Shown: piece after piece, positions 4,365-40,995 of the stretch | How positions within the stretch are numbered: the stretch's first letter is position 1 | How the letters are laid out: each line of letters begins with the position of its first letter | From: Bacteroides sp. | GTDB lineage: Bacteria > Bacteroidota > Bacteroidia > Bacteroidales > Muribaculaceae | Reading direction: 5' to 3' | Length of the DNA stretch: 52,960 nucleotides | NCBI GenBank assembly: GCA_023666905.1 | Contig: JAMPBC010000007.1 | Coordinates: 1-52,960, forward strand | The notes under the pieces: model-generated | The model's database searches: none | Seen by the model: only the letters and a program-made list of their open reading frames with translations | What the model was told of the DNA's origin: nothing | Made by a program: the position numbers and the translations under genes

Positions 4365-4380
4365 AACAAATATCGTGCCA
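4365..4380 (-). promoter_or_regulatory. Sigma-54-like promoter for the TPR-M3 peptidase operon
   Basis: The minus strand reads TGGCACGATATTTGTT. The -24 half (TGGCACG) matches the sigma-54 consensus TGGCACGNNNNTTGCW exactly, and the GG and -12 dinucleotide are ten bases apart. The -12 dinucleotide is GT, not the preferred GC. The ATG follows about 42 bases downstream. No good TAnnTTTG housekeeping box is present here. Confidence 0.5.
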
Positions 4381-4412
4381 AAGGTGTTTGCGGATATAAG
4401 GCGCCTAAAGAA

Positions 4413-4443
4413 CGGGGGCACGGCCGTCATGGCCATGCCCCCG
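4413..4443 (-). terminator. Strong GC-rich terminator after the GH85-like gene
   Basis: CGGGGGCA (4413-4420) pairs with TGCCCCCG (4436-4443), and an inner GGCC/GGCC stem continues the helix. It is 24 bases past the stop at 4468. On the minus strand it is followed by TTCTTTAGG. Confidence 0.8.
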
Positions 4444-4467
4444 CCTGAAGGATTTTATTTAAGAAGT

Positions 4468-7400
4468 TTATTTCTTAACAACTTTGAATGCTTTGGCTTT
4501 CTGGCCATCGCGGGTAACGTTCACAACGTAAACGCCGGGAGCGCCGTTGATTGTAACCTGCATGAAGTCACCGGCAGCAACTTCGTGAGCCTTGGAGGCC
4601 ACGGTGCGACCGTTAACGTCGAAGATTTCCACTTTGTAGAAGCCATCGGCAGTTACATCGAGGTAGAGCACATCGTCAATGGTGTAGGTGCGGAGATCGC
4701 CGTCAGCGGCAATGTCGCCGATAGCACCGAAGTCACCAACCTTGATGAATTGGAATGTGCGTGAATCAGAACCGAGGTCGTTGGCAAGAGTGAGGACTGC
4801 GGTGTAGTCTTCGCCTTCACGGGCAAAGCTTACTTTGGCTGAACCCTCTTTGTCAGAACCGGTTGATTCTGAAACGTTGCCAAGACGGGCCTTCCATGAA
4901 GGCTTGGTTGTGATTTTGTAGTTAGTACCTTCAATGAAGGGGCATCCTGTGCCGGGCACGGGGCGAATAAAGCTGTAGTTGTTCTTGCCCTCTTTTGAAG
5001 CATCGGGTGCAAGCTGGAAGTAGCCTGCTTTCACGCCGGCTTTGGAGCCTTTACCAACATACTTCATGTCAGCGCCGGGTTCATCTTCAAAGTCCCAATA
5101 TCCGGCAAGACCGTCGGGGAGGTTGTTGGGATCAAGACCTTCCATGGAAGCTTTAACCTCGTCGGCTGTCATAGCTTTGTCCCAAACCTGGAATTCATCG
5201 AGAGCACCGGTGAAGCCGGAACCACCATGGCCGCGACCTGTGTGGCGGGTACCGCCCACAATGATGTAGTTGGCCAAATTGATGTTCTTTGAAGCGGTGG
5301 CGTATTCATTGGTTGTACCTGACTGAATGACATATTCACCGCTACCGTAGTCAGACATGCCAAGGAATTGCCATGTGCTTTCCACTTGCTTTCCGTTGAT
5401 GTAGAAGAGTGTGCGGAACGTGGTGGCTGTGCGGTCAAAAATCATGGCGAAGTGAGTCCACTGGCCTTTGTTGAACACTTTGGTCTTACCATTGCCGAAG
5501 TCGTAGCGGAGAACTCGGGTTGTAGCACCGGCATCGTATTGAGAAAAGTCTTGATCGTAATTTTGGAGTGTACCGTCGGTGTTGAGTGACGACCAAAGGA
5601 TACCCCAGTTGTTACGGGGCCATTCGCCGTCCTTCTGAACAATGTCAATGAAGTTAACAGGAGCGGGGAACACATCAATCTTCATCCATCCGCAAACTGA
5701 GAATGACTGAGTACCGTTGGCAAGGATGTCGCCAAGACGTACACCGAAGGCTTCCTCTGCAATGGCGATACCGCGTGAGCAAGCACCGTCGGCTTCGCGA
5801 CCGGTGTAAGCAAGTGCAATTTCTTCGCCGGGTTTAACAGTTATGTCAGCTTCTTTGCCGTTGGCGGTGAGAGTGTTGATTTCGGGGATGCGGCCGCGGG
5901 CTGCATCGGTGATTACAATGTAACCGCTGTGGGTGCAAACAGAGTCGCCCTTAAGTTTCTCTGTCTTTTCTGATTCAGCGCGGGGACGGGTAACAACGAG
6001 GTCGTATGTACCGATTTCGTTGATGCCATTCACTGTCCAGGTGTTGGTCATGCCCTGGCTCTGTGCGACGGGCTGAGCGTTTTCAACACCATTGGGAACA
6101 ATAGCCCACTGGAATTCACGCTTGGAGTCAACGGCCTTGAGTGTGAACTCTTCACCGGGAGTAACGGTTGTCTTCGAGGTTTCAATAGCATCGCTGTATG
6201 TGCGGTCACCTGCTGCTGCATAGTCACCCCAAACAATTTCAGAGTCGGTGTCGGTGTCAAGTGAAACGGCTGCAACACCAAAGCGGATGCGGCCTTCACC
6301 CTTGTCATCGCCCTTGAAAGGAGTGGAGTAGCTCATGGCTGCCCATGAGGTGGTGATTCCCATCAGAACGGGTTCCTGACCTTCTTCCTGAGCGTAAACT
6401 TTGTAAAGTGAGTTGTTAACGTCAATGTTGTAGCAAACTTCGTCAACCGGTTTGTTGTTGGGCACACTCCAAATGAGCTTTGCGTCAACACCGGCGTAAG
6501 TGTTGCGAAGAATCTTCACAGTGGGTTTGTCGGGAGCAGTGGGTTTCGGTGACTGGCCGCGCTTGATTGAGAATTCACCAACAAGGAAGTCCATGTTAGC
6601 TGCTTCAGAGAAGTTCATGGCAACCATGGCAAGAGTTTTGCCAGCAAGGCCGTCGCCGTTAGCAACGGTGTAAGTTTTAGTTGTCCAAGCGCCATCGTCA
6701 ATCATTTGGTCGGCGGTGCAAACGTTGAAGCGGTTGGCGATTTTTGATTCGGCACCGTCAACGCTGAACACGAAGTCAACTTTTGCTTTACCCTGAGTGA
6801 GTTTGTAGCGAACGGTGATAACGTCGCCTGCCTGAAGAGCGTAAGCAGTTTTGAGCAGGTGGAGGTATTCGTTGTCGGTGCTACCGTTGATGCGCAGACA
6901 TGAACCGCCAACGTAAGCATCGTCCCAGCTGAACTGAGCTTTTACACCGTTCTGGGCAACCTTGGCCACGTCAGTGCTGAGGAACTCGGTGGTGAGCCAC
7001 CAGCGCCAGGTGGGGAGGTAGTCCTGAACACCTATATTATACCATTCATTGTTATTGGCGCGTTCGCCCTTCCAGTTGAAGTAGCGTCCGTTACCAATAT
7101 TAAAGAAGGTGTAGAAGGGTTCGGTTGAGAGATCCCATCCCATTGCCGAGCGAGCCGACATGAAGTAGGACATACCCTGGAAAGTAACGTCGGAGCTTGA
7201 GCATGAGTTGGTGGTTACGGGAACAAGGTCGTTAACCGGGTTGTGGGCAGCGCCTGTGAACCAGTTTTCAAGACGATACTGATAAGTATCCTGCTTGGCT
7301 TCGAGAGAAGAACCTCTTTCACCGCGATATTGCCAGAACATGTTTTCCGAGTGAGCACCCCACAGACCGATTGAAAGATTGTAGTCGGGGAGCATGGGCC

Positions 7401-8349
7401 ATGAAGCACCTGAGCGGGGTTCGCCACCCTGCATGTTGAAACCGCAATAGAGGTAAAGCGGGTTACGTCCCTTACCGTACGATGCAGATGCGGCATTGTC
7501 AACGCTCTGCTGCATACGTGAGATGTTGTTCCAGTTGTAGTTGAAGAACAATGAGGTGCGTTCCTGTCCCAGAGGACCCCATGTGCGGATGTTGTGCGAA
7601 CCGAGACCGCGGTCAAATGTAATTGAACCGGCATCGTTGGTTCCGTCATACCACATGTTTTCAGCAAGGTTGTAGGCCGGAGTTGATTTGGCATACTGGG
7701 CGGTGAGCTTCTTCATGAGGTTCTCGTGGAATGTCTGGAGTCTGGAACCATTATACCATCCGGAGAATTCCGAGTTGTAGCCAAGACCATCGTGTCCGAA
7801 GTAAGCCATCATTTTGGCGGCATCTTCGGCATCGAGGTTGCACATAGCGTTAAGCGCGGAGCTCCAGGCCGAGGTGATGGTTCCGAAAGGAATGCCGGCT
7901 ACTGATGAAACGGCCACACCGTTCTTGTGTGCGGCATCGGTGAAGCCGCCGGGGATGGCGCCGAGCGAGGTGTTCCAGTTGCCATAGTGGTCAACATAGC
8001 TCCACATTGTGAAACATTCCGAGTCAAATTCACCGGTAGGCAGGGCATTGCGGCTGTTGCCGTCGGTTTTGATGTTGATGGGGAGCCAAGCGCAGAGACG
8101 CTTGTCGTTCACGTTCCAGGTGAGGTTTTTGCGAACCTGAGTGTTCGCGTTCTGGAAACGGATGTGGGGTTTCACACGAGAGATAAAGAAGTTGTCATCA
8201 TCGTTAATCTTGTGGTTGGTTTTCCAACTGTTAACGTTGGTGGCAAATGCCGTACTCTCGGGCCACACGATGTCGCCTTCATGCCATGCCTGAGCGTTGG
8301 CGCTGAGGCAGAACAGGGCGGCTGCGGGTAAAAGATAGTACTTTTTCAT
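4468..8349 (-). CDS. Secreted GH85-like endo-beta-N-acetylglucosaminidase with LamG-type domain and T9SS signal
   Basis: This 1293-residue protein starts with a clear signal peptide (MKKYYLLPAAALFCLSANAQA). Residues about 80-420 resemble the GH85 barrel: a MWSYVDHYG segment, GFTDAAHKNG, a GHDGLGYNSEFSGW motif holding the Asn192-x-Glu194 pair that matches the catalytic Asn-x-Glu of GH85, then WYDG and FFNYNW. GH85 enzymes cut the chitobiose core of N-glycans. Middle regions look like beta-sandwich and fibronectin/Ig-like modules. A LamG/concanavalin-like domain lies around 850-1100 (ALDEFQVWDKAMTADEV). The last about 75 residues form a type A T9SS sorting domain ending in FKVVKK. It is therefore likely exported by the type IX system and anchored at, or released from, the surface. 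It is a single-gene unit with its own promoter and terminator. Confidence 0.82.
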   Translation of the reverse strand: MKKYYLLPAAALFCLSANAQAWHEGDIVWPESTAFATNVNSWKTNHKINDDDNFFISRVKPHIRFQNANTQVRKNLTWNVNDKRLCAWLPINIKTDGNSRNALPTGEFDSECFTMWSYVDHYGNWNTSLGAIPGGFTDAAHKNGVAVSSVAGIPFGTITSAWSSALNAMCNLDAEDAAKMMAYFGHDGLGYNSEFSGWYNGSRLQTFHENLMKKLTAQYAKSTPAYNLAENMWYDGTNDAGSITFDRGLGSHNIRTWGPLGQERTSLFFNYNWNNISRMQQSVDNAASASYGKGRNPLYLYCGFNMQGGEPRSGASWPMLPDYNLSIGLWGAHSENMFWQYRGERGSSLEAKQDTYQYRLENWFTGAAHNPVNDLVPVTTNSCSSSDVTFQGMSYFMSARSAMGWDLSTEPFYTFFNIGNGRYFNWKGERANNNEWYNIGVQDYLPTWRWWLTTEFLSTDVAKVAQNGVKAQFSWDDAYVGGSCLRINGSTDNEYLHLLKTAYALQAGDVITVRYKLTQGKAKVDFVFSVDGAESKIANRFNVCTADQMIDDGAWTTKTYTVANGDGLAGKTLAMVAMNFSEAANMDFLVGEFSIKRGQSPKPTAPDKPTVKILRNTYAGVDAKLIWSVPNNKPVDEVCYNIDVNNSLYKVYAQEEGQEPVLMGITTSWAAMSYSTPFKGDDKGEGRIRFGVAAVSLDTDTDSEIVWGDYAAAGDRTYSDAIETSKTTVTPGEEFTLKAVDSKREFQWAIVPNGVENAQPVAQSQGMTNTWTVNGINEIGTYDLVVTRPRAESEKTEKLKGDSVCTHSGYIVITDAARGRIPEINTLTANGKEADITVKPGEEIALAYTGREADGACSRGIAIAEEAFGVRLGDILANGTQSFSVCGWMKIDVFPAPVNFIDIVQKDGEWPRNNWGILWSSLNTDGTLQNYDQDFSQYDAGATTRVLRYDFGNGKTKVFNKGQWTHFAMIFDRTATTFRTLFYINGKQVESTWQFLGMSDYGSGEYVIQSGTTNEYATASKNINLANYIIVGGTRHTGRGHGGSGFTGALDEFQVWDKAMTADEVKASMEGLDPNNLPDGLAGYWDFEDEPGADMKYVGKGSKAGVKAGYFQLAPDASKEGKNNYSFIRPVPGTGCPFIEGTNYKITTKPSWKARLGNVSESTGSDKEGSAKVSFAREGEDYTAVLTLANDLGSDSRTFQFIKVGDFGAIGDIAADGDLRTYTIDDVLYLDVTADGFYKVEIFDVNGRTVASKAHEVAAGDFMQVTINGAPGVYVVNVTRDGQKAKAFKVVKK

Positions 8350-8440
8350 TTAAGGTTAATAATTGGTTGTAATTAAAGGTGATTTTCGGTTTATTATCGA
8401 GAAAGAGATTGCAACAGGAGAGTTTTCTCATAATTTGCAA

Positions 8441-8470
8441 CAAAGTTAAGCAAACAAACTTGTTTTGCAA
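8441..8470 (-). promoter_or_regulatory. Housekeeping-type promoter for the GH85-like gene
   Basis: The minus-strand -7 box TAACTTTG (plus-strand CAAAGTTA, 8441-8448) has a TTG at 8468-8470, 19 bases upstream. Transcription would start near 8435, giving a leader of about 85 bases. Confidence 0.6.
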
Positions 8471-8576
8471 TGCGTGGGTTGTTAAGAATCCTTAATGTGA
8501 ATCATAACATTACTCCTACGCTCGTCTTATATATGAAAAAAGGGGGTGGGGTGTTAGCGCAATCAACTTTTTTGAG

Positions 8577-8584
8577 TAATTTTG
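8577..8584 (+). promoter_or_regulatory. -7 box immediately upstream of the lepA start codon
   Basis: TAATTTTG ends only five bases before the lepA ATG at 8590. The -33 region is weak (TTAG near 8554). The predicted RNA start falls at or very near the A of the ATG, so the transcript would be leaderless or nearly so. Confidence 0.5.
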
Positions 8585-8589
8585 CAGCC

Positions 8590-10377
8590 ATGAAAAATAT
8601 CCGCAACTTCTGCATAATTGCACATATCGATCACGGCAAGAGCACACTTGCCGACCGCTTGCTTGAGTTTACCAACACCGTTGGCTCAAAAGACATGCAA
8701 GCTCAGGTGCTCGACGATATGGACCTTGAACGTGAACGTGGCATAACCATAAAGAGTCATGCCATTCAAATGGACTATGCATACAAGGGCGAAAACTATG
8801 AGCTAAACCTTATTGACACTCCGGGACATGTTGACTTTTCCTACGAGGTGTCGCGCTCCATTGCCGCTTGTGAAGGCGCGCTGCTCATTGTCGACGCATC
8901 GCAGGGCATTCAGGCTCAAACCATTTCCAACCTTTACATGGCCATTGACAATAATCTGGAGATTGTGCCGGTGATCAATAAGTGCGACCTCGACAGCGCC
9001 AAGCCCGAGGAGGTGGAGGATCAGATTGTTGACCTTCTGGGGTGCGACCGCGATTCCATAATCCGCGCCAGCGGTAAAACCGGCATGGGCGTGGAGGAGA
9101 TTCTCGCAGCCATAATCGAGCGTATTCCCGCGCCGGAGGGTGACCCCGACGCTCCGTTGCAAGCTTTGATTTTCGACTCGGTGTTCAATCCGTTCCGTGG
9201 AATCATTGCTTATTTCAAGATTGTCAACGGCACAATCCGTAAAAACGATTTTGTGAAGTTCGTTGCAACTGCAAAGGAATATCATGCCGACGAGATTGGG
9301 GTGCTGAAACTCAACATGGCGCCGCGCGACGTGCTTCGGGCCGGTACCGTTGGCTATATTATTTCGGGCATTAAAACCTCAAAAGAGGTTAAAGTGGGCG
9401 ACACCATCACTCATGTACAGCAGCCGTGCGACAAAGCCATAGAGGGATTCGAAGAGGTGAAGCCAATGGTGTTTGCCGGTGTTTACCCCATTGAAACGGA
9501 GGATTTTGAAAACTTGCGCGCGTCGTTGGAAAAACTCCAGCTCAATGATGCATCGCTCACGTTCCAGCCGGAATCGTCAATGGCCTTGGGCTTCGGTTTT
9601 CGTTGCGGCTTCCTTGGACTGCTCCACATGGAAATTGTGCAGGAGCGTCTGGGGCGCGAGTTTGACATGGATGTAATCACCACGGTGCCAAACGTTTCCT
9701 ACAGGGTGTTTGACAAACATGGCAACATGACCGAGGTGCACAACCCCTCGGGGCTGCCTGACGCCACGCTCATTGACCATATCGAAGAGCCATATATCCG
9801 CGCCTCGGTAATCACTGCCGCCGATTACATTGGTCCCATTATGACCCTCTGCCTCGGCAAACGAGGCGAATTGGTGAAGCAGGAGTATATTTCCGGCAAC
9901 CGAATGGAAATGACCTTCGACATGCCGCTTGGGGAGATAGTGATTGACTTTTACGATAAGTTGAAGAGCATATCGAAGGGTTATGCTTCGTTTGACTATC
10001 ATTTGCACGATTTCCGCGAGTCGAAACTGGTGAAACTTGACATTCTGCTCAATGGCGAAAGCGTGGACGCGCTTAGCACACTCACGCACGTGGACAATGC
10101 CGTGACTTTTGGCCGGCGCATGTGCGAGAAACTCAAAGAGCTGATTCCGCGTCAGCAATTTGACATTGCCATTCAGGCGGCCATAGGTGCCAAAATCATT
10201 GCCCGCGAAACCATTAAAGCTGTGCGCAAGGATGTTACGGCGAAGTGCTATGGCGGCGACATTTCACGAAAGCGCAAACTGCTCGAGAAGCAGAAAAAGG
10301 GCAAGAAACGCATGAAGCAGATTGGCTCGGTGGAGGTGCCGCAGAAAGCTTTCCTGGCAGTGCTGAAGCTGGATTAA
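8590..10377 (+). CDS. lepA: Elongation factor 4 (LepA), ribosome back-translocating GTPase
   Basis: LepA is a translational GTPase that binds stalled ribosomes and promotes back-translocation. The 595-residue product begins [19 protein letters not shown], with the Walker A/G1 motif at residues 11-19. G2/G3 follow ([17 protein letters not shown]), then G4 NKCD. The C-terminal LepA-specific domain ends in a Lys/Arg-rich stretch ([21 protein letters not shown]). An in-frame ATG at 8470 would add 40 residues unlike any LepA. I chose 8590 because the family N-terminus starts exactly there and a promoter box lies between the two. The gene is followed by a hairpin and nhaA. Confidence 0.97.
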
Positions 10378-10405
10378 TCCCGTAAGTCAGGCTAAAACAT
10401 AACAG

Positions 10406-10442
10406 GCGTGAGTGTTGTTAAATTAAAAACACATACTCACGC
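10406..10442 (+). promoter_or_regulatory. Hairpin abutting the nhaA start codon
   Basis: GCGTGAGT (10406-10413) pairs perfectly with ACTCACGC (10435-10442), and the ATG of nhaA begins three bases later. There is no U tract, so it is a poor terminator for lepA. It could instead limit ribosome access to nhaA. Confidence 0.45.
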
Positions 10443-10444
10443 TT

Positions 10445-11854
10445 ATGTCGCACACAGTTAAACATACTCCGGAACCGGACTCGGGCGAAGTGTTTTATGC
10501 CGCCCGACAGGCTCTGCGCCGCCATGCCAACGGAGGCAACATTCTGATTCTTGCCACGGTGCTCGCACTCGTTGTGGCAAATATCCCCGGACTTAACAGT
10601 GTTTACTTCTCGTTTTGGGACACCGAGATGCGTTTGCAAATCGGATCGTTCAACCTGCTTAGTCACGCCGGGCACCCCATGACTGTGCTCCAGTTCATTA
10701 ACGATGCGTTGATGGCCGTGTTTTTCTTCACCATAGGGCTTGAAATCAAACGCGAGGTTCTTGTGGGTGAGTTGGCATCGTTCCGTCAGGCGCTGTTGCC
10801 CATAATGGGGGCCATAGGGGGCATGGCATTGCCGGTTTGCATTTTTCTTTTCATGGCACGGGGTACCGACTATGCTTCCGGCGCAGCCATACCCATGGCC
10901 ACGGATATTGCGTTCACACTGGGCGTTTTAGCTATGCTTGGGAGTCGTGTGCCGGTGTCGTTGAAAGTTTTTCTCACCACACTTGCTGTGGTCGATGATA
11001 TTGGCGGAATCCTGGTGATTGCATTGTTTTACAGCTCGCACATCGAGGTGTCCATGCTGGTATATGCATTTGTGGTGTTAGGTGTACTTTTGACAGGTTC
11101 GGCCATGCGCATCCAAAGTAAGATTTTTTACTTCGGGCTCGGAGGGGTTGTTTGGTTCCTGTTTTTGAACTCGGGAGTGCATCCTACAATTGCCGGAGTG
11201 CTTGTGGCGTTCTGTATTCCGGCCACACCGGTGTTCGCACCAAAGAAATATGTGCGTATAATCCGTTCGGCCATATCGCATTTCAATCAGGAGGATGATG
11301 AAACGCTCAGCCGCAAATCAATACTTAACAAAGAGCAATTGAACTGGCTTAAGGAAGTTGAGTCGGCCTCCGACAAGGTTATTTCGCCTCTCCAGGATTT
11401 GGAAGACTCTCTGCACGCGGTGGTGAATAATTTCATTGTTCCACTGTTTGCCTTTGCCAATGCCGGTATTTTCCTGCTTGACAAAAGTCCTGACATGGTT
11501 GTGCAGGGTGTGAGTCTGGCCATTATTCTTGGTCTGGTAGCCGGTAAGTTTTTGGGAATCTTCGGATTCTCCTGGCTTACGGTGAAGTTTCGCCTGGCTG
11601 AAATGCCACATGGAACCAACTGGCCGATGCTTGCCGGAGCGGCAGTGTTGGGCGGAATTGGTTTCACGGTGTCATTGTTCATTGCCACACTTACATTCTC
11701 GTCGGGAAGTGCAGCCGATGTCGCTATGCTGAATCAGGCAAAAGCGGGCATTGTGGCCGGTTCGGTGATTGCAGGAGTGGGTGGCTTCCTTCTGCTCAAA
11801 CATAGTTTGGCAAAGATGCCAACCACGCACCGTGACAACCAAGGTGCCGCATAG
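10445..11854 (+). CDS. nhaA: Na+/H+ antiporter NhaA
   Basis: NhaA is an inner-membrane antiporter that expels Na+ in exchange for protons and helps pH and salt homeostasis. The 469-residue product has the expected run of hydrophobic helices. The ion-binding residues are present: Asp154 in MATDIAFTLG and the pair Asp184-Asp185 in AVVDDIGG, matching E. coli Asp133 and Asp163/164. A hydrophilic loop at about residues 270-310 is longer than in E. coli NhaA, which explains the larger size. The gene follows lepA by 67 bases, and I see no clear TAnnTTTG box in the gap, so it may be read from the lepA promoter. The hairpin touching its start codon is a possible control point. Confidence 0.95.
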   Translation: MSHTVKHTPEPDSGEVFYAARQALRRHANGGNILILATVLALVVANIPGLNSVYFSFWDTEMRLQIGSFNLLSHAGHPMTVLQFINDALMAVFFFTIGLEIKREVLVGELASFRQALLPIMGAIGGMALPVCIFLFMARGTDYASGAAIPMATDIAFTLGVLAMLGSRVPVSLKVFLTTLAVVDDIGGILVIALFYSSHIEVSMLVYAFVVLGVLLTGSAMRIQSKIFYFGLGGVVWFLFLNSGVHPTIAGVLVAFCIPATPVFAPKKYVRIIRSAISHFNQEDDETLSRKSILNKEQLNWLKEVESASDKVISPLQDLEDSLHAVVNNFIVPLFAFANAGIFLLDKSPDMVVQGVSLAIILGLVAGKFLGIFGFSWLTVKFRLAEMPHGTNWPMLAGAAVLGGIGFTVSLFIATLTFSSGSAADVAMLNQAKAGIVAGSVIAGVGGFLLLKHSLAKMPTTHRDNQGAA

Positions 11855-11878
11855 GAGTGATTTTTGTTTGGCTCAGGC

Positions 11879-11909
11879 TTGTGTAATCGGTGAAAGTTGG
11901 CTAACTTTG
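11879..11909 (+). promoter_or_regulatory. Promoter of the AGE epimerase-folP-cdaA operon
   Basis: TTG (11879-11881), a 20-base spacer and TAACTTTG (11902-11909) make a good Bacteroidetes housekeeping promoter. The ATG follows 37 bases downstream. Confidence 0.65.
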
Positions 11910-11946
11910 ACCGATTTATTTAAGCACTATGTTTATTTGAGCCATC

Positions 11947-13143: not shown

Positions 13144-13988
13144 TGTCTCTGTTCCGCCCCTTTTCACTGTCCGTCCGCCAAAGGATGGTTTGGTTTGACG
13201 CTCCTTGTATCATGGGGATTGTCAATGCCACTCCCGACTCATTTTATGCTCAGTCGCGCGTTGCTACACGCGAAGCGATAATGCACCGGGTAGCGGAGAT
13301 GTTGGAACAGGGGGTGGACATTATCGATGTAGGCGCCTGTTCAACGCGCCCCGGATCCGATTCGGTTGGTGCCGATGAGGAATTGAGGCGATTGGAAATG
13401 GCTTTGGCAGCCGTTCGAGAGGTGAGTGGAGATGTTCCCGTGTCGGTAGACACGTTCCGCGCCGATGTGGCACGCCGTGTGGTCTGTGAAATGGAAGCGG
13501 ATATTATCAACGACATTGGCGAAGGCGACCTTGATGCGGATATGTTCGGCACTATAGCCGATTTGCAAGTGCCATACGTATTGATGCACACTCGCGGAAC
13601 CCCGGCCGAAATGCAAAACCTTGCCAAGTATGACAACGTGACGGTTGAAGTTACCGCACGCTTGAGTGCGAAGCTCGCACTCCTGGAGGAATTGGGTGTC
13701 AATGATGTGATTGTTGACCCCGGATTCGGATTTGCCAAAACCCTGGCGCAAAACTACGAATTGCTGCGGAACATTCCTCACATTATTAACGTTCTCCGCA
13801 AGCCTCTTTTAGTTGGACTTTCACGCAAATCAATGCTCACCCGGTTGCTTGGAATAGAAGCGGACAACGCATTGAATGCCACTACGGTTGCCAACACCAT
13901 AGCCTTGATGAACGGTGCTTCGGTGCTCCGGGTTCACGATGTTCGGGCTGCCTGCGAGGTACGTAAAATAGTTTCACAAGTTGTTTAA
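13143..13988 (+). CDS. folP: Dihydropteroate synthase
   Basis: FolP condenses p-aminobenzoate with hydroxymethyl-dihydropterin diphosphate to form dihydropteroate in folate synthesis, and is the sulfonamide target. The 281-residue product has the NATPDSF signature at 28-34, DVGACSTRPGS at 62-72, SVDTFRADVA and DPGFGFAKT, in the order of an intact TIM barrel. It lies between an AGE epimerase (one-base overlap) and cdaA (15-base gap). The folP-cdaA pairing recurs, as far as I recall, in Bacteroidetes. Another folate-pathway enzyme of this window, folE, is in a separate operon at 50166. Confidence 0.96.
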   Translation: MSLFRPFSLSVRQRMVWFDAPCIMGIVNATPDSFYAQSRVATREAIMHRVAEMLEQGVDIIDVGACSTRPGSDSVGADEELRRLEMALAAVREVSGDVPVSVDTFRADVARRVVCEMEADIINDIGEGDLDADMFGTIADLQVPYVLMHTRGTPAEMQNLAKYDNVTVEVTARLSAKLALLEELGVNDVIVDPGFGFAKTLAQNYELLRNIPHIINVLRKPLLVGLSRKSMLTRLLGIEADNALNATTVANTIALMNGASVLRVHDVRAACEVRKIVSQVV

Positions 13989-14783: not shown

Positions 14784-14792
14784 TATAGAGAG

Positions 14793-31002: not shown

Positions 31003-33030
31003 TTATTCAGGCAAGGGTGGGGGAGTTTCCGAAGAGTTGTTGGACCCACTTTCGTTTTCGGTGACCGCGGACTCGTCTGTATCTCCGTTTTTTTCAGGAA
31101 GAGCATTTTGAGGCGTCGCCGCAAGAATTTCTTCGGTGCGTGAAGTCCAAGGACGTTTTCCGAAAATATGCTCTACATCTTCAGTGAAAATAACCTCGCG
31201 CTTAATCAAAACATCGGCCAATTCGTTGTGTCCGGCAGCGTGAGCTTTCAGAATTTCCTTTGCGCGTTCATATTGTTCGTTAATAATCCGGCTCACCTCT
31301 TCATCAATAAGTTTGGCACGCTCATCGCTGTAAGGCTTGGAGAATCCATAGTCCTGACCAGTGGAATCGTAGTAGCAAAGGTTCGGAAGTTTGTCGCTCA
31401 TTCCGTAATATACCACCATGGCATAGGCTTGCTTGGTGACACGCTCCAGATCATTGGCGGCACCGGTGGAGATGCGACCCAGGAATAATTCTTCGGCAGC
31501 ACGTCCGCCAAGAGTGGCACACATTTCATCAAGTATGGCCTGGGTGGGCGTGATCTGTCGTTCTTCGGGTAAATACCAAGCTGCACCAAGGGCTTTGCCA
31601 CGTGGCACAATAGTTACCTTGATTAGAGGATTGGCATAGCGAAGATGCCATGAAACAGTGGCATGTCCGGCTTCATGAATGGCAATGGAGCGCTTTTCCT
31701 CGTCCGTTGTAATTTTGGAGCGCTTTTCAAGACCACCTACAATGCGGTCCACGGCATCAACAAAGTCCTGGCGGGTAACGGTTTTATGGTCGTGGCGGGC
31801 AGCTATCAGGGCCGCCTCATTACATACATTGGCAATCTCAGCACCCGAGAACCCCGGGGTTTGGCGTGCAAGCAAGTCAACGTCAACTGAAGAATCTTTT
31901 TTGATTTTGCGCAGATGAACGTTGAAAATGGCCACGCGATCGTTAAGGTCCGGAAGGTCCACGTAAATCTGACGGTCAAAGCGTCCGGCACGGAGCAATG
32001 CTTTATCAAGAATGTCGGCACGGTTGGTAGCTGCAAGTATTATTACGCCACTATTGGTACCGAAACCGTCCATTTCAGTGAGAAGCTGATTGAGCGTGTT
32101 TTCACGTTCATCGTTTGAACCCATGTTCGGGTTGCGTCCGCGTGCGCGGCCCACGGCGTCAATTTCGTCAATAAACACAATGCAGGGAGCTTTTTCTTTA
32201 GCTTGGCGGAAGAGATCGCGAACACGTGATGCTCCCACACCAACAAACATTTCCACAAAATCACTACCTGAAAGGGAGAAAAATGGCACATTGGCTTCTC
32301 CGGCCACTGCTTTGGCGAGCAGAGTCTTACCTGTTCCGGGAGGGCCTACCAGGAGAGCACCTTTTGGAATTTTACCACCCAAATCGGTGTATCGTTGGGG
32401 GTTCTTAAGAAATTCAACAATTTCCTCAATTTCGGTTTTTGCTTCGGACAGGCCGGCCACATCCTTAAACGTTACCTTTTCAGCATTGTCCTTATCAAAC
32501 ATTTTTGCTTTTGATTTGCCAACACTGAAAACACCTCCGGCAGCTCCATCACCGCGGCCTGCCATGCGGCGCATTATCCAGAACCAGAACACAATAAGCA
32601 AGATTATCGGGCCAAAGGACCAGATATACGATGAAAAGTCAGAAGTCTTGTCATAGCTAACATCGCCATTGAAAACACCCGATGCTTTCCACTGCTCGAT
32701 GTCCTTCTCTATTTTTTCTTGCGAACCAATGGTGACGTAAACCGATGCCGGAGTCGTGGAATTTTTGGGATAATTAGGAAATTGTTTTACTGCCTCAGCC
32801 TCAGTGAGAAAACCTTCGGCTTGATGTTTTGTTGGGTTTATTACAATTTTCTTAAGCCCGCGTTGGCTCGCAATCTGTTCAAACTGCGTGTAACTTTCCA
32901 GTTCTTTGGAATAATGGTCCTGATCAAAATAAGCAATACCGAACAGGCCAATCAAAATGATGGCATACATCCAGTACATGCTGAACCGGAAGACTGGCTT
33001 TTTAGGTGTTGGAAGGTTGTTCATTGCCAT
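31003..33030 (-). CDS. ftsH: ATP-dependent zinc metalloprotease FtsH
   Basis: FtsH is a membrane-bound AAA+ protease that degrades misfolded membrane proteins and selected regulators. The 675-residue product has two transmembrane helices (about 17-34 and 137-154) around a periplasmic domain, then the AAA domain with Walker A GPPGTGKT at 229-236 and Walker B around Asp288-Glu289. The zinc site HEAGH is at 452-456. The C-terminal tail is Ser/Pro/Glu-rich. It follows rsfS by 55 bases in a two-gene operon with a sigma-54-like promoter, and a strong terminator closes it. Confidence 0.97.
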
Positions 33031-33085
33031 GAGGATGGTGGTGATGGATGGTTGGGGAAATGTTGATAGCCGTAACTAACTTTAA

Positions 33086-33472
33086 TCAATCAAGATCCGG
33101 GATTTGTGTGATTTTCGCATCGCTCCACAGATCTTCCAGATTATAGCGCTCACGTTCCTGGGGAAGGAAAACGTGAACAAGTGTATCGCCATAGTCAATC
33201 ACAATCCACTGGGAGTTTTCATATCCGTCGTAATTGAAGGGTTTGATGCCGGCATGTTCAAGGAGATAATCTCTGATACTGTCGGCAATGGCACTGACCT
33301 GCATGTTGCTTGTGCCTTGACAAATAACGAAGTGTGAAACTCCTGCGCTTTCTATTTCGCTTAGGTCCACAAGGGTAATGTTGCGTCCTTTACGGTCTTG
33401 AATGCCCTCGGTGATAAGTTGGAGCATTTGTGCGGAGGTGATTGCTTTTGGTTTGGTTGAAGTTTCTATCAT
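33086..33472 (-). CDS. rsfS: Ribosomal silencing factor RsfS
   Basis: RsfS binds ribosomal protein L14 and blocks subunit joining when nutrients are scarce. The 128-residue product matches the family in length and shows GIQDRKGRNITLVDLSEIESAGVSHFVICQGTSNMQVSAIADSI, and GYENSQWIVIDYGDTLVHVFLPQERERYNLEDLWSDA near the C-terminus. It is the first gene of the rsfS-ftsH operon, a pairing I recall as common in Bacteroidetes. The promoter 30 bases upstream looks like sigma-54. Confidence 0.96.
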   Translation of the reverse strand: MIETSTKPKAITSAQMLQLITEGIQDRKGRNITLVDLSEIESAGVSHFVICQGTSNMQVSAIADSIRDYLLEHAGIKPFNYDGYENSQWIVIDYGDTLVHVFLPQERERYNLEDLWSDAKITQIPDLD

Positions 33473-33501
33473 TTATGTGTGTATGGGATTTTACTTAGTT
33501 A

Positions 33502-33517
33502 AACAAATATCATGCCA
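33502..33517 (-). promoter_or_regulatory. Sigma-54-like promoter for rsfS-ftsH
   Basis: The minus strand reads TGGCATGATATTTGTT, 13 of 16 positions identical to the site ahead of the TPR-M3 operon or better, with GG and the -12 dinucleotide ten bases apart. The -12 dinucleotide is GT rather than GC. The ATG lies 30 bases downstream. Confidence 0.5.
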
Positions 33518-33540
33518 AAAAGGTCGTTGAGGGTAGAGAA

Positions 33541-34806: not shown

Positions 34807-36008
34807 GCGTTGACTGTTCGGCCGGGGTAAGCTTTCAAGGCTTCGGCAAGTACTTTCAGGGCTTGCGCAAGGTCTTCTCGGCAAAGTACATAGGCCATCC
34901 TGACCTCATTTCGTCCCATGCCGGGCGTGGTATAGAATCCTGAAGCGGGTGCCATAAACACTGTGGCTCCTTCATATTGGAATTCTTTAAGGCACCATTC
35001 GCAAAATTTGTCAGCGTCGTCAACCGGCAGGCTTACAACTGTGTAGAAAGCTCCCATTGGAATTGGCGAATAGCACCCGGGAATGCGGTTAAGCCCGTCA
35101 ATGAGGAATTTACGACGCTCAACATACTCATTGTAGGTCATGAGCATATAATCGGCCGAAGCGTCAATTGAGGCTTCAGCCACAATTTGGCCAAGCAGAG
35201 GTGGGCTCAATCGGGCCTGACAGAACTTCATGACATTTTTCTTGAGTTCTGCATTTTTGGTTATAAGTGCTCCAATGCGTATTCCGCACTCGCTGTAACG
35301 TTTTGAAACAGAATCAATAAGTACAACTTGCTCTTCTATGCCGGGCAGATGAAATGCTGAAATGTAAGGAGCCCCCGTGTATGTAAATTCACGGTACACT
35401 TCATCAGAAAACAGGAACAGATCATATTTTTTCACCAAATCCCTAATTTGGTTCATTTCCTTTTGAGTGTACAGGTAACCGGTGGGATTGTTGGGATTGC
35501 ATATAAGAATTCCCTTGGTTCGGGGGGTAATCAGTTTCTCAAAATCATCAACGGGGGGAAGTGCGAAGCCTTGGTCAATGGACGATGGCACAGTTACAAT
35601 TTTGGCTCCTGCCGAAATGGCAAATGCCATATAGTTGGCATAAGCGGGCTCCGGTACAATTATTTCATCGCCAGGGTCAAGACATGCCATGAATGCAAAA
35701 AGCACAGCCTCACTTCCGCCTGTGGTCACTATAATATCGTCAGGAGTAACGTCAATGTTAAAGCGATGGTAATAGTCAGCAAGTTTTTTCCTAAGGGACA
35801 AAAGGCCTTCCGATGGGCTGTATTCAAGGATTTTACGGTCGATATTCTTAAGTGCGTCAAGGCCTTCCTGCGGTGTGGGGAGGTCCGGCTGACCGATATT
35901 GAGGCGAATCACCTTGACTCCGCGCTTTTCTGCTTCGCGAGCCAAGGGAACGAGTTTTCTAATTGGGGAGGCGGGCATTATCTGGCCACGCCTGGATATG
36001 TCTGGCAT
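34803..36008 (-). CDS. PLP-dependent class I aminotransferase (aspartate aminotransferase-like)
   Basis: The 401-residue cytoplasmic enzyme has the fold-type I signatures: NPNNPTG at 171-177, SDEVYREF, and the PLP lysine Lys236 in DSVSKRYSECGIRIG. It transfers amino groups between amino acids and keto acids; the likely donors are aspartate, tyrosine or similar, but specificity cannot be read. It has its own housekeeping promoter and is coupled to the LolC/E-like permease by a four-base overlap. Confidence 0.93.
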   Translation of the reverse strand: MPDISRRGQIMPASPIRKLVPLAREAEKRGVKVIRLNIGQPDLPTPQEGLDALKNIDRKILEYSPSEGLLSLRKKLADYYHRFNIDVTPDDIIVTTGGSEAVLFAFMACLDPGDEIIVPEPAYANYMAFAISAGAKIVTVPSSIDQGFALPPVDDFEKLITPRTKGILICNPNNPTGYLYTQKEMNQIRDLVKKYDLFLFSDEVYREFTYTGAPYISAFHLPGIEEQVVLIDSVSKRYSECGIRIGALITKNAELKKNVMKFCQARLSPPLLGQIVAEASIDASADYMLMTYNEYVERRKFLIDGLNRIPGCYSPIPMGAFYTVVSLPVDDADKFCEWCLKEFQYEGATVFMAPASGFYTTPGMGRNEVRMAYVLCREDLAQALKVLAEALKAYPGRTVNA

Positions 36009-36036
36009 AATTTGAAATCACTAAAAATAATAATTG

Positions 36037-36067
36037 CAAAGGTAGTTAAAATGCCACCAACGGCAAA
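36037..36067 (-). promoter_or_regulatory. Promoter of the aminotransferase-permease operon
   Basis: The minus-strand -7 box TACCTTTG (36037-36044) and TTTG (36064-36067) are 19 bases apart. The ATG is 28 bases downstream. Confidence 0.65.
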
Positions 36068-36094
36068 ATTTTTTTGTGGGTAATGAAATTCGGT

Positions 36095-36131
36095 AAAAAA
36101 TCAAACGAGCCCACCGGTAAAGGTGGACCCG
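36095..36131 (-). terminator. Terminator after htpG
   Basis: CGAGCCCACC (36106-36115) and GGTGGACCCG (36122-36131) pair over ten positions with two G-U pairs. On the minus strand they are followed by TTTGATTTTTT. It lies 54 bases past the htpG stop. Confidence 0.8.
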
Positions 36132-36185
36132 CTGTTTAAAGAATTAGCTATGATTCAATGATTAGAATTAACGAAGTGGCGATGC

Positions 36186-38234
36186 TTAAAGCAATGACAC
36201 CGAACGGCGGATGAACTCGTTAAGTTGTGCGCCGCGAAGTAATCCGTTGGCCAAAAGGGCAAGGTCAATTGATTGTTTAACCAAAGGCGATTCGTTACCA
36301 AATTCCGCTGCAAACTTCTTTTCTTCAGAGCGCAGATGCGATGTTTTCTCATCAAGCTCTTTGATTTGTTTCTGTTGTTCATCGGTAAGTTTCCCGTTTT
36401 CAGCATTTTTGCGAATTGCTTCGGCTTCGGAATTGTTAGAGGCAATGGAGTCAAACAGAGGCGCGAGTTTTGGAGCAAGACTTGTGTCAGCAGCAGAGAT
36501 TATGCGCTTCACCACAGGGCTTTCAGTGTTTACAATCATGTTGTAGCTGTCAGGCAGCTCTCCGTAGAAACTCATGCCCGGTTGCATTGCCGCCATGTCC
36601 TTCATTCGGCGCATGTATTCGCTTTGAGTGAGAAGTACCGGATTGGCATCGGCGTTCAATGCCTCAAACGAAATGAGGAACTCGGCTTTATCAACTTTGG
36701 GCATTTGTGAAAGGAACAGTTCGGTCAACATGTCACGCTGATTTGCAGAGATACCGGCGTCTTTCTTGTCGGCTTTGGGAATGAGATTGTCAACCACATC
36801 GGCGTCAACACGTACGAAACGGCTCTTTTCAAGTTTGCTCTCAAGTAGGCCAATGAAATGGCTGTCAAGTTGTCCATCAAACAAAAGCACGTTGTAACCC
36901 TTGTCGGTGGCTGCTTTGATGTAGGTGTACTGAGCCACCGGGTCGGTTGTATAGAGATAAACTACGTTGCCATCCTTGTCGGTTTGGGTGCCTTCAATTA
37001 GTGTACGGTATTCTTCAAATGTGTAATATTTATTCTCTGTGTCTTTCAACAGGGCAAATTTCATTGCTGCATCGCAGAATTTCTGGTCGGTGAGCATGCC
37101 GTACTCAATGAAAATCTTAATGTCATCCCATTTCTTTTCGTAGTCGGCGCGGTCAGTCTTGAATATTTCTTCCAAACGGCTTGCCACTTTCTTAGTGATG
37201 TAGCCGGAGATTTTTTTAACGGCAGTGTCGGATTGCAGGTATGAACGGGATACGTTAAGGGGAATGTCTGGGGAGTCAATAACACCTTGAAGCAACATCA
37301 TGAACTCCGGAACAACTCCTTCAACAGAGTCGGTTACATATACCTGATTGCAGTAAAGCTGAATCCTGTTCTTAGTGATTTCAAAATTGTTTTTGATTTT
37401 CGGGAAAAACAGAACACCGGTTAGGTTGAAGGGATAGTCAACGTTGAGGTGAATCCAGAACAACGGGTCGTCCTGACCGGGGTAGAGCTCGTGATAGAAA
37501 TTCCTATAATCTTCATCGGTTAGTTCCGATGGCTTTTTAGTCCAGGTGGGCTCGGTTACGTTGATGATTTTAGGGCGGTCCGTGTCGACGTATTTCCCAT
37601 CTTTCCATTCTTGTTCAAAACCGGAAATTACAGGAACAGGGAGGAAGCGGCAGTATTTCTTTAGCAAGGAATCAATTTCGCTTTGCTGAAGGAAGTTCTT
37701 GTTTTCATCGTCAATGTACAGAACAATGTCGGTGCCGCGGGTTGATTTGTCAGTTTTCTCCATGGTGTATTCAGGAGACCCGTCGCATGACCATTTTACA
37801 GCCTCGGCGCCGTCTTTATATGACAATGAAATGATTTCCACTTTCTTGGCCACCATGAACGCGGAATAGAAACCCAGTCCGAAGTGCCCAATGATTGCAT
37901 TGGCATTATCCTTGTACTTTTCAAGGAATTCTTCAGCCCCTGAAAAGGCAATTTGGTTTATGTACTTGTCAATATCCTCGGCAGTCATTCCAATACCGTG
38001 GTCGGATACAGTGAGTGTTCCTGCTTTTTCATCAACGGTCACGGTGACATTCATGTCGGTTAGTTCGCCTTTGAATTCACCGAACGATGATAAGGTTTTG
38101 AGTTTCTGTGTTGCATCAATGGCGTTTGAAACGAGTTCGCGAAGGAAAATTTCGTGGTCGCTGTAAAGAAATTTCTTGATTACAGGGAAAATGTTTTCGG
38201 TTGTTACACCGATTGAACCTTTTTGTGCTGTCAT
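36186..38234 (-). CDS. htpG: Chaperone HtpG (Hsp90)
   Basis: HtpG is the bacterial Hsp90, an ATP-dependent chaperone in the cytoplasm. The 682-residue product has the GHKL ATP site: Glu33 and Asn37 in LRELVSNAIDA, DHGIGM, and GHFGLGFYSAFMV. The middle domain (LFFPKIKNNFEITKNRIQLYCNQVYVTDS) and the C-terminal dimerisation domain follow. I start it at 38234 (MTAQKGSIG); an upstream frame to 38351 crosses the terminator hairpin and adds 39 residues with no family likeness. Its presumed promoter is the sigma-54-like site at 38281-38296, and a terminator follows at 36095-36131. Confidence 0.97.
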   Translation of the reverse strand: MTAQKGSIGVTTENIFPVIKKFLYSDHEIFLRELVSNAIDATQKLKTLSSFGEFKGELTDMNVTVTVDEKAGTLTVSDHGIGMTAEDIDKYINQIAFSGAEEFLEKYKDNANAIIGHFGLGFYSAFMVAKKVEIISLSYKDGAEAVKWSCDGSPEYTMEKTDKSTRGTDIVLYIDDENKNFLQQSEIDSLLKKYCRFLPVPVISGFEQEWKDGKYVDTDRPKIINVTEPTWTKKPSELTDEDYRNFYHELYPGQDDPLFWIHLNVDYPFNLTGVLFFPKIKNNFEITKNRIQLYCNQVYVTDSVEGVVPEFMMLLQGVIDSPDIPLNVSRSYLQSDTAVKKISGYITKKVASRLEEIFKTDRADYEKKWDDIKIFIEYGMLTDQKFCDAAMKFALLKDTENKYYTFEEYRTLIEGTQTDKDGNVVYLYTTDPVAQYTYIKAATDKGYNVLLFDGQLDSHFIGLLESKLEKSRFVRVDADVVDNLIPKADKKDAGISANQRDMLTELFLSQMPKVDKAEFLISFEALNADANPVLLTQSEYMRRMKDMAAMQPGMSFYGELPDSYNMIVNTESPVVKRIISAADTSLAPKLAPLFDSIASNNSEAEAIRKNAENGKLTDEQQKQIKELDEKTSHLRSEEKKFAAEFGNESPLVKQSIDLALLANGLLRGAQLNEFIRRSVSLL

Positions 38235-38280
38235 TATTATAAGGTGATTTTGGTTATTTTCATATTGTACTAAACAATCA

Positions 38281-38296
38281 AGCAAAAAAAATGCCA
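38281..38296 (-). promoter_or_regulatory. Sigma-54-like promoter for htpG, embedded in the clpC terminator
   Basis: The minus strand reads TGGCATTTTTTTTGCT: GG and GC are exactly ten bases apart and the TTGCT end matches the -12 consensus. It uses the 3' arm and U tract of the clpC terminator. The htpG ATG is 47 bases downstream, and no TAnnTTTG box lies between. Confidence 0.45.
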
Positions 38297-38318
38297 CAAT
38301 CGATATGTGGCATTTTTT
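38284..38318. terminator. Terminator after clpC
   Basis: ATGCCACA (38291-38298) pairs with TGTGGCAT (38306-38313), extended by A/T runs on both sides, with a seven-base loop. It has U tracts in both directions and serves clpC on the minus strand, whose stop is 30 bases upstream. Confidence 0.85.
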
Positions 38319-38347
38319 GCTAAATATTGTCAAATTAACTGTCAGAA

Positions 38348-40894
38348 TCATCTGTCAGCATTGACCGTGGCACTGACAGAAGTGGTAATTTTGTCGGCTT
38401 CCGTGTCATAGTCAACCAAAATTGTAGCACCATCGGGCAATTCTCCGTCGATAAGAATTTCGGCCAGGGGGTCTTCAAGATATTTTTGGATTGCGCGTTT
38501 GAGCGGACGGGCACCATACTGAATGTCATAACCTCGTTCGGCGATGTAATCCTTGGCTTTGTCGGAAAGCGTAAGGGTGTAGCCGAGTGAGTTGATACGT
38601 TTGTGGAAGCCGGCAAGTTCAATATCGATTATCTTGAAAATTGCTTCTTTGTCAAGAGAATCAAACATTATAATGTCGTCGACTCGGTTCAGAAACTCGG
38701 GTGAGAAAGCTTTGTGAAGAGCTTTGTTAATGACCCCTTGGGCAAGTTCTTTCTCGTTTGTGCGCGGTGTTGAGAAACCTACGCCGGTGCCGAATTCTTT
38801 AAGCTGTCGGGTGCCTATGTTCGACGTCATTATAATTATGGTGTTTTTAAAGTCAATTCGACGTCCGAGCCCGTCAGTCAAACGACCTTCATCCATAACT
38901 TGAAGTAGAAGATTAAACACATCGGGGTGGGCTTTCTCAATTTCATCAAGAAGCACAACGGAGTATGGCCTACGGCGAACCTGTTCGGTGAGCTGTCCGC
39001 CTTCATCGTAGCCAACATATCCGGGAGGCGCTCCCACGAGTCGGCTCACAGTGAATTTTTCCATATACTCACTCATGTCAACGCGGATAAGCGTGTCGGC
39101 AGAATCAAACAGCTGCTCTGCAAGCTTTTTGGCAAGATGGGTTTTACCCACGCCGGTAGGACCGAGGAACATAAATGTGCCAATGGGTTTGTTGGGGTCC
39201 TTGAGCCCGACACGATTGCGCTGAATCGCTTTTACAATTTTGTCAATAGCCGTGTCCTGACCAATGATTTGTGATTTGAGTGACGGAGCCATTTGACGCA
39301 AGCGGCGACCTTCTGCTTGAGCAATGCGTTGTGCCGGCACGCCGGTCATCATTGCAACTACCTCGGCAACTTTTTCCTCGTCAACTATCTCACGCTTGGT
39401 GTTGAGATCGCTTTCCCAGCGTTGCTTTGCAGCATCCAAGTCATGGCGAAGCTGTTGCTCCTTGTCCCGGAAGCCGGCGGCTTTTTCAAAATCCTGGTTT
39501 TGAGCTGCCTGGATTTTGGCGGCCGAAGCTTCTTCAATTGATTCTTCAAGAGCTTCTATCTCCTTGGGGACAACAATGTTTGTGATGTGAACACGTGAAC
39601 CGGCTTCATCAAGAGCATCGATAGCTTTGTCGGGGAAGTTGCGGTCTGTCATGTAACGTTCGGTGAGCTTCACGCAAGCCTTGACGGCTTCAGGAGTGTA
39701 GGTTACATTGTGATGTGACTCATACTTTTCCTTAATATTGTTCAGAATGGCAAGGGTCTCCTCCTCCGATGTAGGTTCTACCACAACCTTTTGGAAACGG
39801 CGTTCAAGAGCTCCATCCTTTTCAATGTTTTTACGATATTCATCGTGGGTTGTGGCACCTATGCATTGAATTTCGCCTCGGGCCAAAGCCGGTTTGAGCA
39901 TGTTGGCGGCATCCATTGAACCGGGAGCGCCACCTGCGCCCACAATGGTGTGGATTTCGTCAATGAACAGAATCACATCAGGACTTTTTGCAAGTTCGTT
40001 GAGCACTGCTTTGATGCGCTCTTCAAACTGGCCGCGATATTTAGTCCCGGCCACCATTGCCGCCATGTCAAGAGAAACCACTCGCTTGTCAAAAAGTACA
40101 CGCGACACCTTGCGTTGCACAATGCGAAGTGCAAGTCCTTCAACAATAGCTGATTTGCCAACCCCCGGCTCGCCAATGAGGATGGGGTTGTTTTTCTTGC
40201 GACGGCTTAGAATTTGGGCAAGTCGTTCAATCTCCACTTCTCGACCAACCACCGGATCAAGTCGGTTTTCTTCGGCTGCGCGAGTCATGTCGTGGCCAAA
40301 TTTGTCAAGAGTGGGAGTGTCAGTGTTTCTTGATGACGAGCGTGATTGTCCGGTTGATTTTTCCCGGTTGCTGCCGGATGAAGCGGGCGTTCCGTCCATG
40401 GTTTCATCGTCGTCCTCATCGTCGGTGAAGTCGGAGCCCATGTGGGGGAGTCCGGCCTGCTCGGCAAGAGACTTGTAAAGAGTTTCGTATGATACGTTAG
40501 CGCGCTTGAACGGTTTCATAAAGTTCATTTCGTTGATTTCTTGGTTGTGGAAAATAGCTAAGAGAAGGTGCTCCATGTCAACTTCCTTGCTTCGCAGCAT
40601 TCGGGCTTCGAGCATGCTGAGTTTTATGAGCCTATTGCACATGGGGCTTGCTGCAATTTGCCCGGAGGAAGAGTCAGACGCGAGACCCATCTCAAAAAGT
40701 TCTTTGTCAAGTTGTTGGGTCAGTTCGTAAGCCGAGGTGCCTGTGCAAACATGGTCAATCATTGCCATGATTTTGCGTGAAGGCTCCGCGAGCAAGCTGT
40801 AAAGAAGATGCTCGGGCTTGATTACCGATGAGTTGTGGGTCACGGCAATTCTTGTGCTTTCAGAAATGACTTGGTTGAGTTGGGCTGTGAACAT
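38348..40894 (-). CDS. clpC: ClpC-type AAA+ unfoldase of the Clp protease
   Basis: ClpC unfolds damaged proteins and feeds them to ClpP. The 848-residue product has an N-terminal Clp_N repeat domain (1-145) and an acidic linker (about 153-196). AAA-1 has Walker A GEPGVGKSA at 241-249. A UVR-type middle segment (DFEKAAGFRDKEQQLRHDLD) follows, and then AAA-2 with GPTGVGKTH at 578-586 and the C-terminal D2-small domain. I start it at 40894 (MFTAQLNQVISES), where family N-termini begin; a frame to 40927 adds 11 residues. It diverges from gyrA. A full-match sigma-54-like promoter lies about 86 bases upstream. Confidence 0.96.
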   Translation of the reverse strand: MFTAQLNQVISESTRIAVTHNSSVIKPEHLLYSLLAEPSRKIMAMIDHVCTGTSAYELTQQLDKELFEMGLASDSSSGQIAASPMCNRLIKLSMLEARMLRSKEVDMEHLLLAIFHNQEINEMNFMKPFKRANVSYETLYKSLAEQAGLPHMGSDFTDDEDDDETMDGTPASSGSNREKSTGQSRSSSRNTDTPTLDKFGHDMTRAAEENRLDPVVGREVEIERLAQILSRRKKNNPILIGEPGVGKSAIVEGLALRIVQRKVSRVLFDKRVVSLDMAAMVAGTKYRGQFEERIKAVLNELAKSPDVILFIDEIHTIVGAGGAPGSMDAANMLKPALARGEIQCIGATTHDEYRKNIEKDGALERRFQKVVVEPTSEEETLAILNNIKEKYESHHNVTYTPEAVKACVKLTERYMTDRNFPDKAIDALDEAGSRVHITNIVVPKEIEALEESIEEASAAKIQAAQNQDFEKAAGFRDKEQQLRHDLDAAKQRWESDLNTKREIVDEEKVAEVVAMMTGVPAQRIAQAEGRRLRQMAPSLKSQIIGQDTAIDKIVKAIQRNRVGLKDPNKPIGTFMFLGPTGVGKTHLAKKLAEQLFDSADTLIRVDMSEYMEKFTVSRLVGAPPGYVGYDEGGQLTEQVRRRPYSVVLLDEIEKAHPDVFNLLLQVMDEGRLTDGLGRRIDFKNTIIIMTSNIGTRQLKEFGTGVGFSTPRTNEKELAQGVINKALHKAFSPEFLNRVDDIIMFDSLDKEAIFKIIDIELAGFHKRINSLGYTLTLSDKAKDYIAERGYDIQYGARPLKRAIQKYLEDPLAEILIDGELPDGATILVDYDTEADKITTSVSATVNADR

Positions 40895-40979
40895 TTCAAA
40901 GTAATTGTGTTGAAAATAAAAAATCAATTGAAACCGGGAGCGGTTTAAGAACTGCCGGTTGAATCATAACGTATATTCT

Positions 40980-40995
40980 TGCAATTATTGTGCCA
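40980..40995 (-). promoter_or_regulatory. Sigma-54 promoter for clpC (best match)
   Basis: The minus strand reads TGGCACAATAATTGCA, matching TGGCACRNNNNTTGCW at every fixed position, with GG-N10-GC spacing. Inverted AACGT/ACGTT repeats at 41037-41052, about 45-60 bases upstream, could be an enhancer-binding site, though that is speculative. Confidence 0.65.

Follow-up and report, generated by a model that had tools for sequence, protein, structure and literature searches.

Heat shock in many bacteria is governed by sigma-32 or HrcA. In Flavobacterium psychrophilum, 5'-end RNA sequencing placed sigma-54 (SM4) promoters at groES-groEL, lon, dnaK, grpE-dnaJ, htpG and clpB, and the accessible text of that study ties the SM4 regulon to protein quality control (PMC9723704, ISME Commun 2021). 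Across the Bacteroidota, predicted sigma-54 promoters are, in the available part of a second account, enriched before the genes for GroEL, GroES, GrpE, DnaJ and DnaK, and the prediction extends to HSP90 (COG0326) and the ATP-dependent proteases of COG0542, COG0466 and COG1066 (PMC12316311, PLoS One 2025). Here we examine four sigma-54-like -24/-12 sites that precede clpC, htpG, rsfS-ftsH and an operon for a TPR-repeat protein and a family M3 peptidase (the TPR-M3 operon) in a 52,960-nucleotide stretch of DNA from Bacteroides sp. (Muribaculaceae; contig JAMPBC010000007.1 of assembly GCA_023666905.1), hereafter the window. A first-pass annotation of the window had proposed that these sites are promoters of a sigma-54 proteostasis regulon and that such a regulon was undescribed. 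The latter proposal is wrong, as the accessible parts of both accounts already describe one in Bacteroidota (PMC9723704, PMC12316311). The regulon being in print, this genome is therefore a further member, and our analysis adds clpC, rsfS-ftsH, the TPR-M3 operon and a slyD-like gene as targets, an overlap between a terminator and a promoter, and a candidate enhancer together with a candidate activator.

All four 16-nucleotide sites are present on the minus strand where the first-pass annotation had placed them, each with its GG and -12 G separated by a fixed gap of ten bases. They are TGGCACAATAATTGCA (40980-40995) before clpC (38348-40894), TGGCATTTTTTTTGCT (38281-38296) before htpG (36186-38234), TGGCATGATATTTGTT (33502-33517) before rsfS (33086-33472) and ftsH (31003-33030), and TGGCACGATATTTGTT (4365-4380) before the genes for the TPR-repeat protein (2108-4324) and the M3 peptidase (78-2111), all of these genes likewise being on the minus strand. 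From the end of the -12 element to the start codon we counted 86, 47, 30 and 41 bases, respectively, in agreement with the claimed 30 to 90. Pfam upheld the gene names (a Clp ATPase with Clp_N, AAA, UVR and ClpB_D2-small matches; HSP90; the ribosomal silencing factor RsfS; FtsH with AAA and peptidase M41; a TPR protein; peptidase M3). The pattern TGGCA-N6-TTGY occurs nine times in the window, compared to a mean of 1.7 in shuffled sequence, and none of 100 shuffles reached nine; the other five matches (6627+, 6629-, 23601+, 30238+ and 37901+) lie inside long reading frames. There were no Rfam matches in the window, and no relative turned up when genome contigs were scanned with the TPR protein. 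A G+C-rich inverted repeat at 4413-4443 (minus strand), just 5' of the TPR-M3 promoter and not overlapping it, resembles a terminator of the preceding gene.

Comparison across relatives showed that the -24/-12 sites are conserved at fixed spacing. TGGCA-N6-TTGY (the strict motif) was sought within 400 bases upstream of orthologues in 34 genomes of the same genus, this one included, or, for rsfS, in 41 genomes of the genus and order; rsfS and groES counts refer to loci with at least 150 upstream bases (18 and 25). The strict motif preceded clpC in 25/25 orthologues, dnaK in 29/29, the TPR-M3 operon in 26/29 (two more read TTGA at -12), htpG in 21/24 and rsfS in 14/18 (15 when relaxed). At groES in relatives it was present in 4/25, and in 24/25 when relaxed to allow a -12 of TATGC and the like; Cpn10, the groES product, was not found in our assembly, which is 92% complete. 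Spacings of N4, N5, N7 and N8 gave 0-3 matches per gene set, reversed and opposite-strand motifs 0-1, and the first 300 bases of coding sequence none, and 20 dinucleotide shuffles gave a maximum of one match for clpC, dnaK, TPR-M3, htpG and rsfS and of two for groES. Between species the spacer and flanks vary while -24 and -12 stay constant. The column conservation figures are partly circular because rows were picked through the motif. The -12 reading is gene-specific, being TTGC in 25/25 at clpC and TTGT in 29/29 at dnaK.

The strict motif is absent from htpG of G008, which reads TTGA, and of G019, and the G009 match, one of the 21, lies 192 bases upstream, off the usual place. About six bases past the htpG -12, TGTT(A) is strongly conserved (L137-L160), even in G019 where the -24 element is missing. 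A wider set was drawn from the best 80 named HtpG records, among which Muribaculaceae are frequent and the closest is Paramuribaculum sp. HAN018 at 91% identity; one record with fewer than 100 upstream bases was dropped. Of the 79 remaining loci, 39 carry the strict motif and 61 carry TGGCAY-N5-TTGH, compared to 0-1 at other spacings. The counts leave out, for ClpC, rows L132-L136 (ClpB-like, with 23-28% identity) and others of that sort that have no locus; for DnaK, L224 and rows weaker than it; for HtpG, L161, L163 and L164; and also a second TPR copy (L194) and the second RsfS copy of G018. With 16, 68 and 40 upstream bases, respectively, RsfS L090, groES L238 and groES L239 were too short for the spacing and shuffle counts, and HtpG L162 stands outside the counts though it carries TGGCATTTTTTTTGC.

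Short motifs recur by chance, and the four sites could be look-alikes picked out of a long stretch of sequence by someone already aware of which genes lay there. TTGGCA-N6-TTGY matches the genome 65 times, compared to 14 for the reversed pattern; we classified 63 of these (all except C44:33493 and C76:3919), and 51 lie within reading frames of at least 100 codons, so chance matches do exist. The TPR-M3 site itself is among the 51 and not in the non-coding count, because a long antisense frame overlies it. Of the 12 non-coding matches, eight, two of them in tandem, lie within 220 bases upstream of a same-strand gene, and the seven genes concerned are dnaK, clpB, rsfS-ftsH, clpC, an FKBP-type isomerase gene (slyD-like), lon (the tandem pair) and a gene for a small predicted lipoprotein. 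Six of the seven are proteostasis genes; the other four non-coding matches (on C1, C10, C11 and C36) have no gene so placed. A second pattern, TGGCAY-N5-TTGY, has 47 matches compared to 25 reversed, and those outside long frames or directly 5' of a gene are at dnaK, slyD, lon, htpG, clpC, rsfS and TPR-M3 (at dnaK, slyD, lon and htpG the sites fall within a frame that is already open 5' of the gene start), with matches on C1 and C10 that have no clear target. Sigma-54-like sites thus precede dnaK, htpG, lon and clpB in this genome, orthologue conservation having been tested for dnaK and htpG. On orthologue conservation at exact spacing (25/25, 29/29, 26/29, 21/24 and 14/18, compared to shuffle maxima of 0-1), and on the genome-wide gene context, we rejected a chance origin and consider it exceedingly improbable.

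Three further features of the genome-wide matches are recorded here. The tandem sites at lon, TTGGCACCGTTTTTGC and TTGGCAATAATTTTGT, are 20 bases apart (L292:2408-2443, equal to C76:35907-35942), and TAnnTTTG words overlap them. On C1, a good sigma-54-like site, TTGGCATGATTGTTGC (L291:1429-1444), lies in non-coding DNA and is followed by a short frame with no clear target gene. The lipoprotein gene, the sole non-proteostasis gene of the seven, has TTGGCAAAATAATTGT 76 bases before it (C31:1017-1032, minus strand, L021).

The motif might alternatively be a longer version of the promoter used for housekeeping genes in Bacteroidota (TTG ... TAnnTTTG). ATATTTG is like the TAnnTTTG -7 box and TTTGG is like a -33 TTG. 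However, the gap from GG to the -12 G is fixed at ten bases, not about 20; the clpC and groES sites (ATTATTGC and AATATGC) are unlike a -7 box; and, as the first-pass annotation had observed, in this genome none of the four genes has TAnnTTTG in the 300 bases upstream. We therefore regard a housekeeping identity as very improbable.

Both the sigma factor and a candidate activator are encoded in the genome (2.18 Mb in 76 contigs). There is one rpoN, with AID, CBD and DBD domains, and one bona fide enhancer-binding protein, on C11 (L002:838-2070:-). The latter matches the AAA+ family PF00158 with E 8.6e-66, carries a Fis-type helix-turn-helix (HTH_8) and has the loop GSFTGA, one residue from the canonical GAFTGA; no recognised sensor domain was found in it. 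PF00158 has four matches in the genome, three of them weak, including clpC itself (C74:38831). Judging from translations, the C11 activator gene lies downstream of asparaginase-like and methionyl-tRNA-synthetase-like genes. Together with fixed-spacing conservation and the non-coding genome matches, this strongly supports the assignment of the sites as probable sigma-54 promoters of a proteostasis regulon.

Upstream of several sites lies a palindrome, TGACA-N3-TGTCA, scored at no more than one mismatch unless stated. It is present upstream of htpG in 16/24, dnaK in 14/29 and groES in 16/25 genus orthologues, compared to 0-0.5 in shuffles, and in 29 of the 61 wider-set htpG loci, compared to 0.4. 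Among 30 palindrome places at wider-set htpG, 17 are 25-26 bases before TGG and others are near -36, -46 and -56. At groES, a match (up to two mismatches) occurs 35-37 bases before TGG in 19/25, and the halves sometimes change together (TGCCA-N3-TGGCA); in this genome, TGACAAAATGGCA stands 84 bases ahead of the dnaK TGG. The palindrome is perhaps the site of the C11 activator, for which it is a candidate. At many groES loci (L225-L251) TGACA recurs as an additional half-site, some 16 bases 5' of TGG.

A palindrome at three heat-shock genes is also what a repressor of the HrcA/CIRCE type might use, in which case the conserved blocks would be operator DNA. CIRCE is often used by heat-shock genes. 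Its consensus was absent at up to four mismatches from all six gene sets (dnaK 0/29, groES 0/25), HrcA not being searched for, and the best HAIR element had 4/14 mismatches, reached by 7/150 regions. The palindrome, moreover, lies mostly upstream of -24 (near -25, -36, -46, -57 and -84) and not over it. Control by such a repressor is, in our judgment, quite improbable.

The htpG site, between clpC and htpG, appears to be both a promoter and a terminator, an overlap that is absent from the first-pass annotation. Directly after clpC is an intrinsic-terminator-like hairpin, AAAAAATGCCACA-N7-TGTGGCATTTTTT (38286-38318, minus strand; minimum free energy (MFE) -16.1), with a T-run to 38284; its 3' arm doubles as the htpG -24 element, and its U-tract as the promoter spacer. 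As a stable hairpin with a T-run directly after the gene, it is a predicted clpC terminator. A strong hairpin (MFE -12.2 to -21.2 kcal/mol) is predicted in every genus genome whose clpC and htpG matches share a contig with htpG 2033-2139 bases past clpC (17, counting this one), and in two more (G003 and G006) that have the two matches on separate contigs. Equal-length windows at the other promoters have mean MFEs of -5.2 to -6.6, with single values down to -15.6. In these 19 hairpins the base pairs flanking TGGCA show compensatory changes, both partners being exchanged (T-A/C-G, A-T/G-C and C-G/T-A). Inside TGGCA the 3' base is invariant, which is set partly by how rows were found, and only its 5' partner varies, leaving a wobble pair in 11/19 at one position (T-G replacing C-G) and in 1/19 at another. 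A fixed 3' arm with a drifting 5' partner would be the pattern expected from a double constraint, as terminator and as -24 element.

Is the htpG site simply the clpC terminator, its likeness to TGGCA...TTTTTTTTGC being accidental? This was our initial view, and the 19 strong hairpins with U-tracts speak for it, as does TGGCA forming the 3' stem arm at 21/61 wider-set loci; G048, which belongs to the 17, is short of one T and so its spacing is off. We dropped the terminator-only view because relatives whose hairpin is weak or gone keep the promoter: TGGCATTT-N2-TTTGC persists in G014 (MFE -6.2), where clpC and htpG are 3853 bases apart, and in G004 (-9.0) and G002 (-4.4), where clpC is on another contig. 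In addition, the final TTGC goes beyond what a U-tract requires, many wider-set sites have mixed spacers (TGGCACAAAAATTGT and TGGCATGATATTTGC), and the accessible text on F. psychrophilum includes a mapped SM4 (sigma-54) promoter at htpG (PMC9723704). A terminator and nothing more is quite improbable at this site.

These results suggest that RNA polymerase carrying RpoN (sigma-54) would read the four -24/-12 promoters, with RNA starting just downstream, and that a single proteostasis regulon would also cover dnaK, lon, clpB and the FKBP/SlyD-type isomerase gene, as well as groES in relatives. The C11 enhancer-binding protein is the likely ATPase opening these promoters, on a signal that may be unfolded protein or heat, and may bind the TGACA-N3-TGTCA upstream of htpG, dnaK and groES. 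Where clpC gives way to htpG, the promoter of htpG would be embedded in an active clpC terminator, with the -24 element as its 3' arm and the spacer as its U-tract. For this explanation as a whole (RpoN-read promoters, one proteostasis regulon, the C11 activator and the clpC-htpG overlap) we estimate a probability of about 0.88.

Several observations weigh against it. The palindrome is not clearly enriched at clpC (2/24; at two mismatches 9/24, compared to three in shuffles), rsfS (1/18) or TPR-M3 (0/28), has only degenerate half-sites at htpG in this genome, and at dnaK is also common with N4 spacing (11/29 at one mismatch). The groES -12 is mostly TATGC, not TTGC, and 18 of the 79 wider-set htpG loci have no site within 300 bases. 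With the assembly 92% complete, a second activator could be missing from it. The rsfS site is the least uniform: it is lacking in G002, G004 and G014, and outside the genus anything similar was seen at 3 of 11 examined loci (of 14 from other families). TAnnTTTG also stands between site and gene in 11 of 15 site-bearing relative regions (L077-L095), 34-61 bases downstream of the sigma-54 site, so in relatives sigma-54 may act at rsfS as a second, inducible promoter; because the window genome has no such box, its rsfS-ftsH may depend more heavily on sigma-54.

A bolder extension holds that sigma-54 directs heat shock in Bacteroidales by way of a single Fis-type activator that lacks a sensor and binds TGACA-N3-TGTCA unusually near the promoter, in apparent steps of about ten bases. 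At clpC-htpG, a half-site for the activator, the terminator hairpin and the sigma-54 promoter would be stacked in some 50 bases, the same bases ending clpC and activating htpG. We put this forward tentatively, at somewhat short of even odds. If Bacteroidota do use ATP-requiring, activator-gated sigma-54 for heat shock, chaperone genes would be off at these promoters until an activator acts, which is an uncommon way to control an essential response, here in bacteria that are abundant in the gut. One short sequence would seemingly have been selected both as terminator and as promoter, and the candidate activator and its DNA site are open to testing.

Our search of the literature, which left most subscription literature outside, returned no recognised account of the palindrome or of a terminator/sigma-54 overlap for Bacteroidota. 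With the SM4 regulon of F. psychrophilum, this genome has in common the sites at dnaK, lon, htpG and clpB, and its relatives that at groES (PMC9723704). The selection table of that study does not include clpC, rsfS-ftsH, the TPR-M3 operon or slyD, all of which have sites here; it does include gliding and envelope genes, which are not among the sites we found. Terminator overlap and TGACA-N3-TGTCA are features here that we did not meet in the accessible part of the F. psychrophilum account (PMC9723704). The Bacteroidota-wide prediction consists of class-level statistics, and its available text does not cover FtsH, RsfS, the M3 peptidase, enhancer sites or terminator overlap (PMC12316311). Like intrinsic (rho-independent) terminators, the clpC-htpG element has a G+C-containing hairpin and a 3' T-run right after clpC; unlike ordinary ones, its 3' arm and T-run are also a conserved sigma-54-like promoter ending in TTGC.

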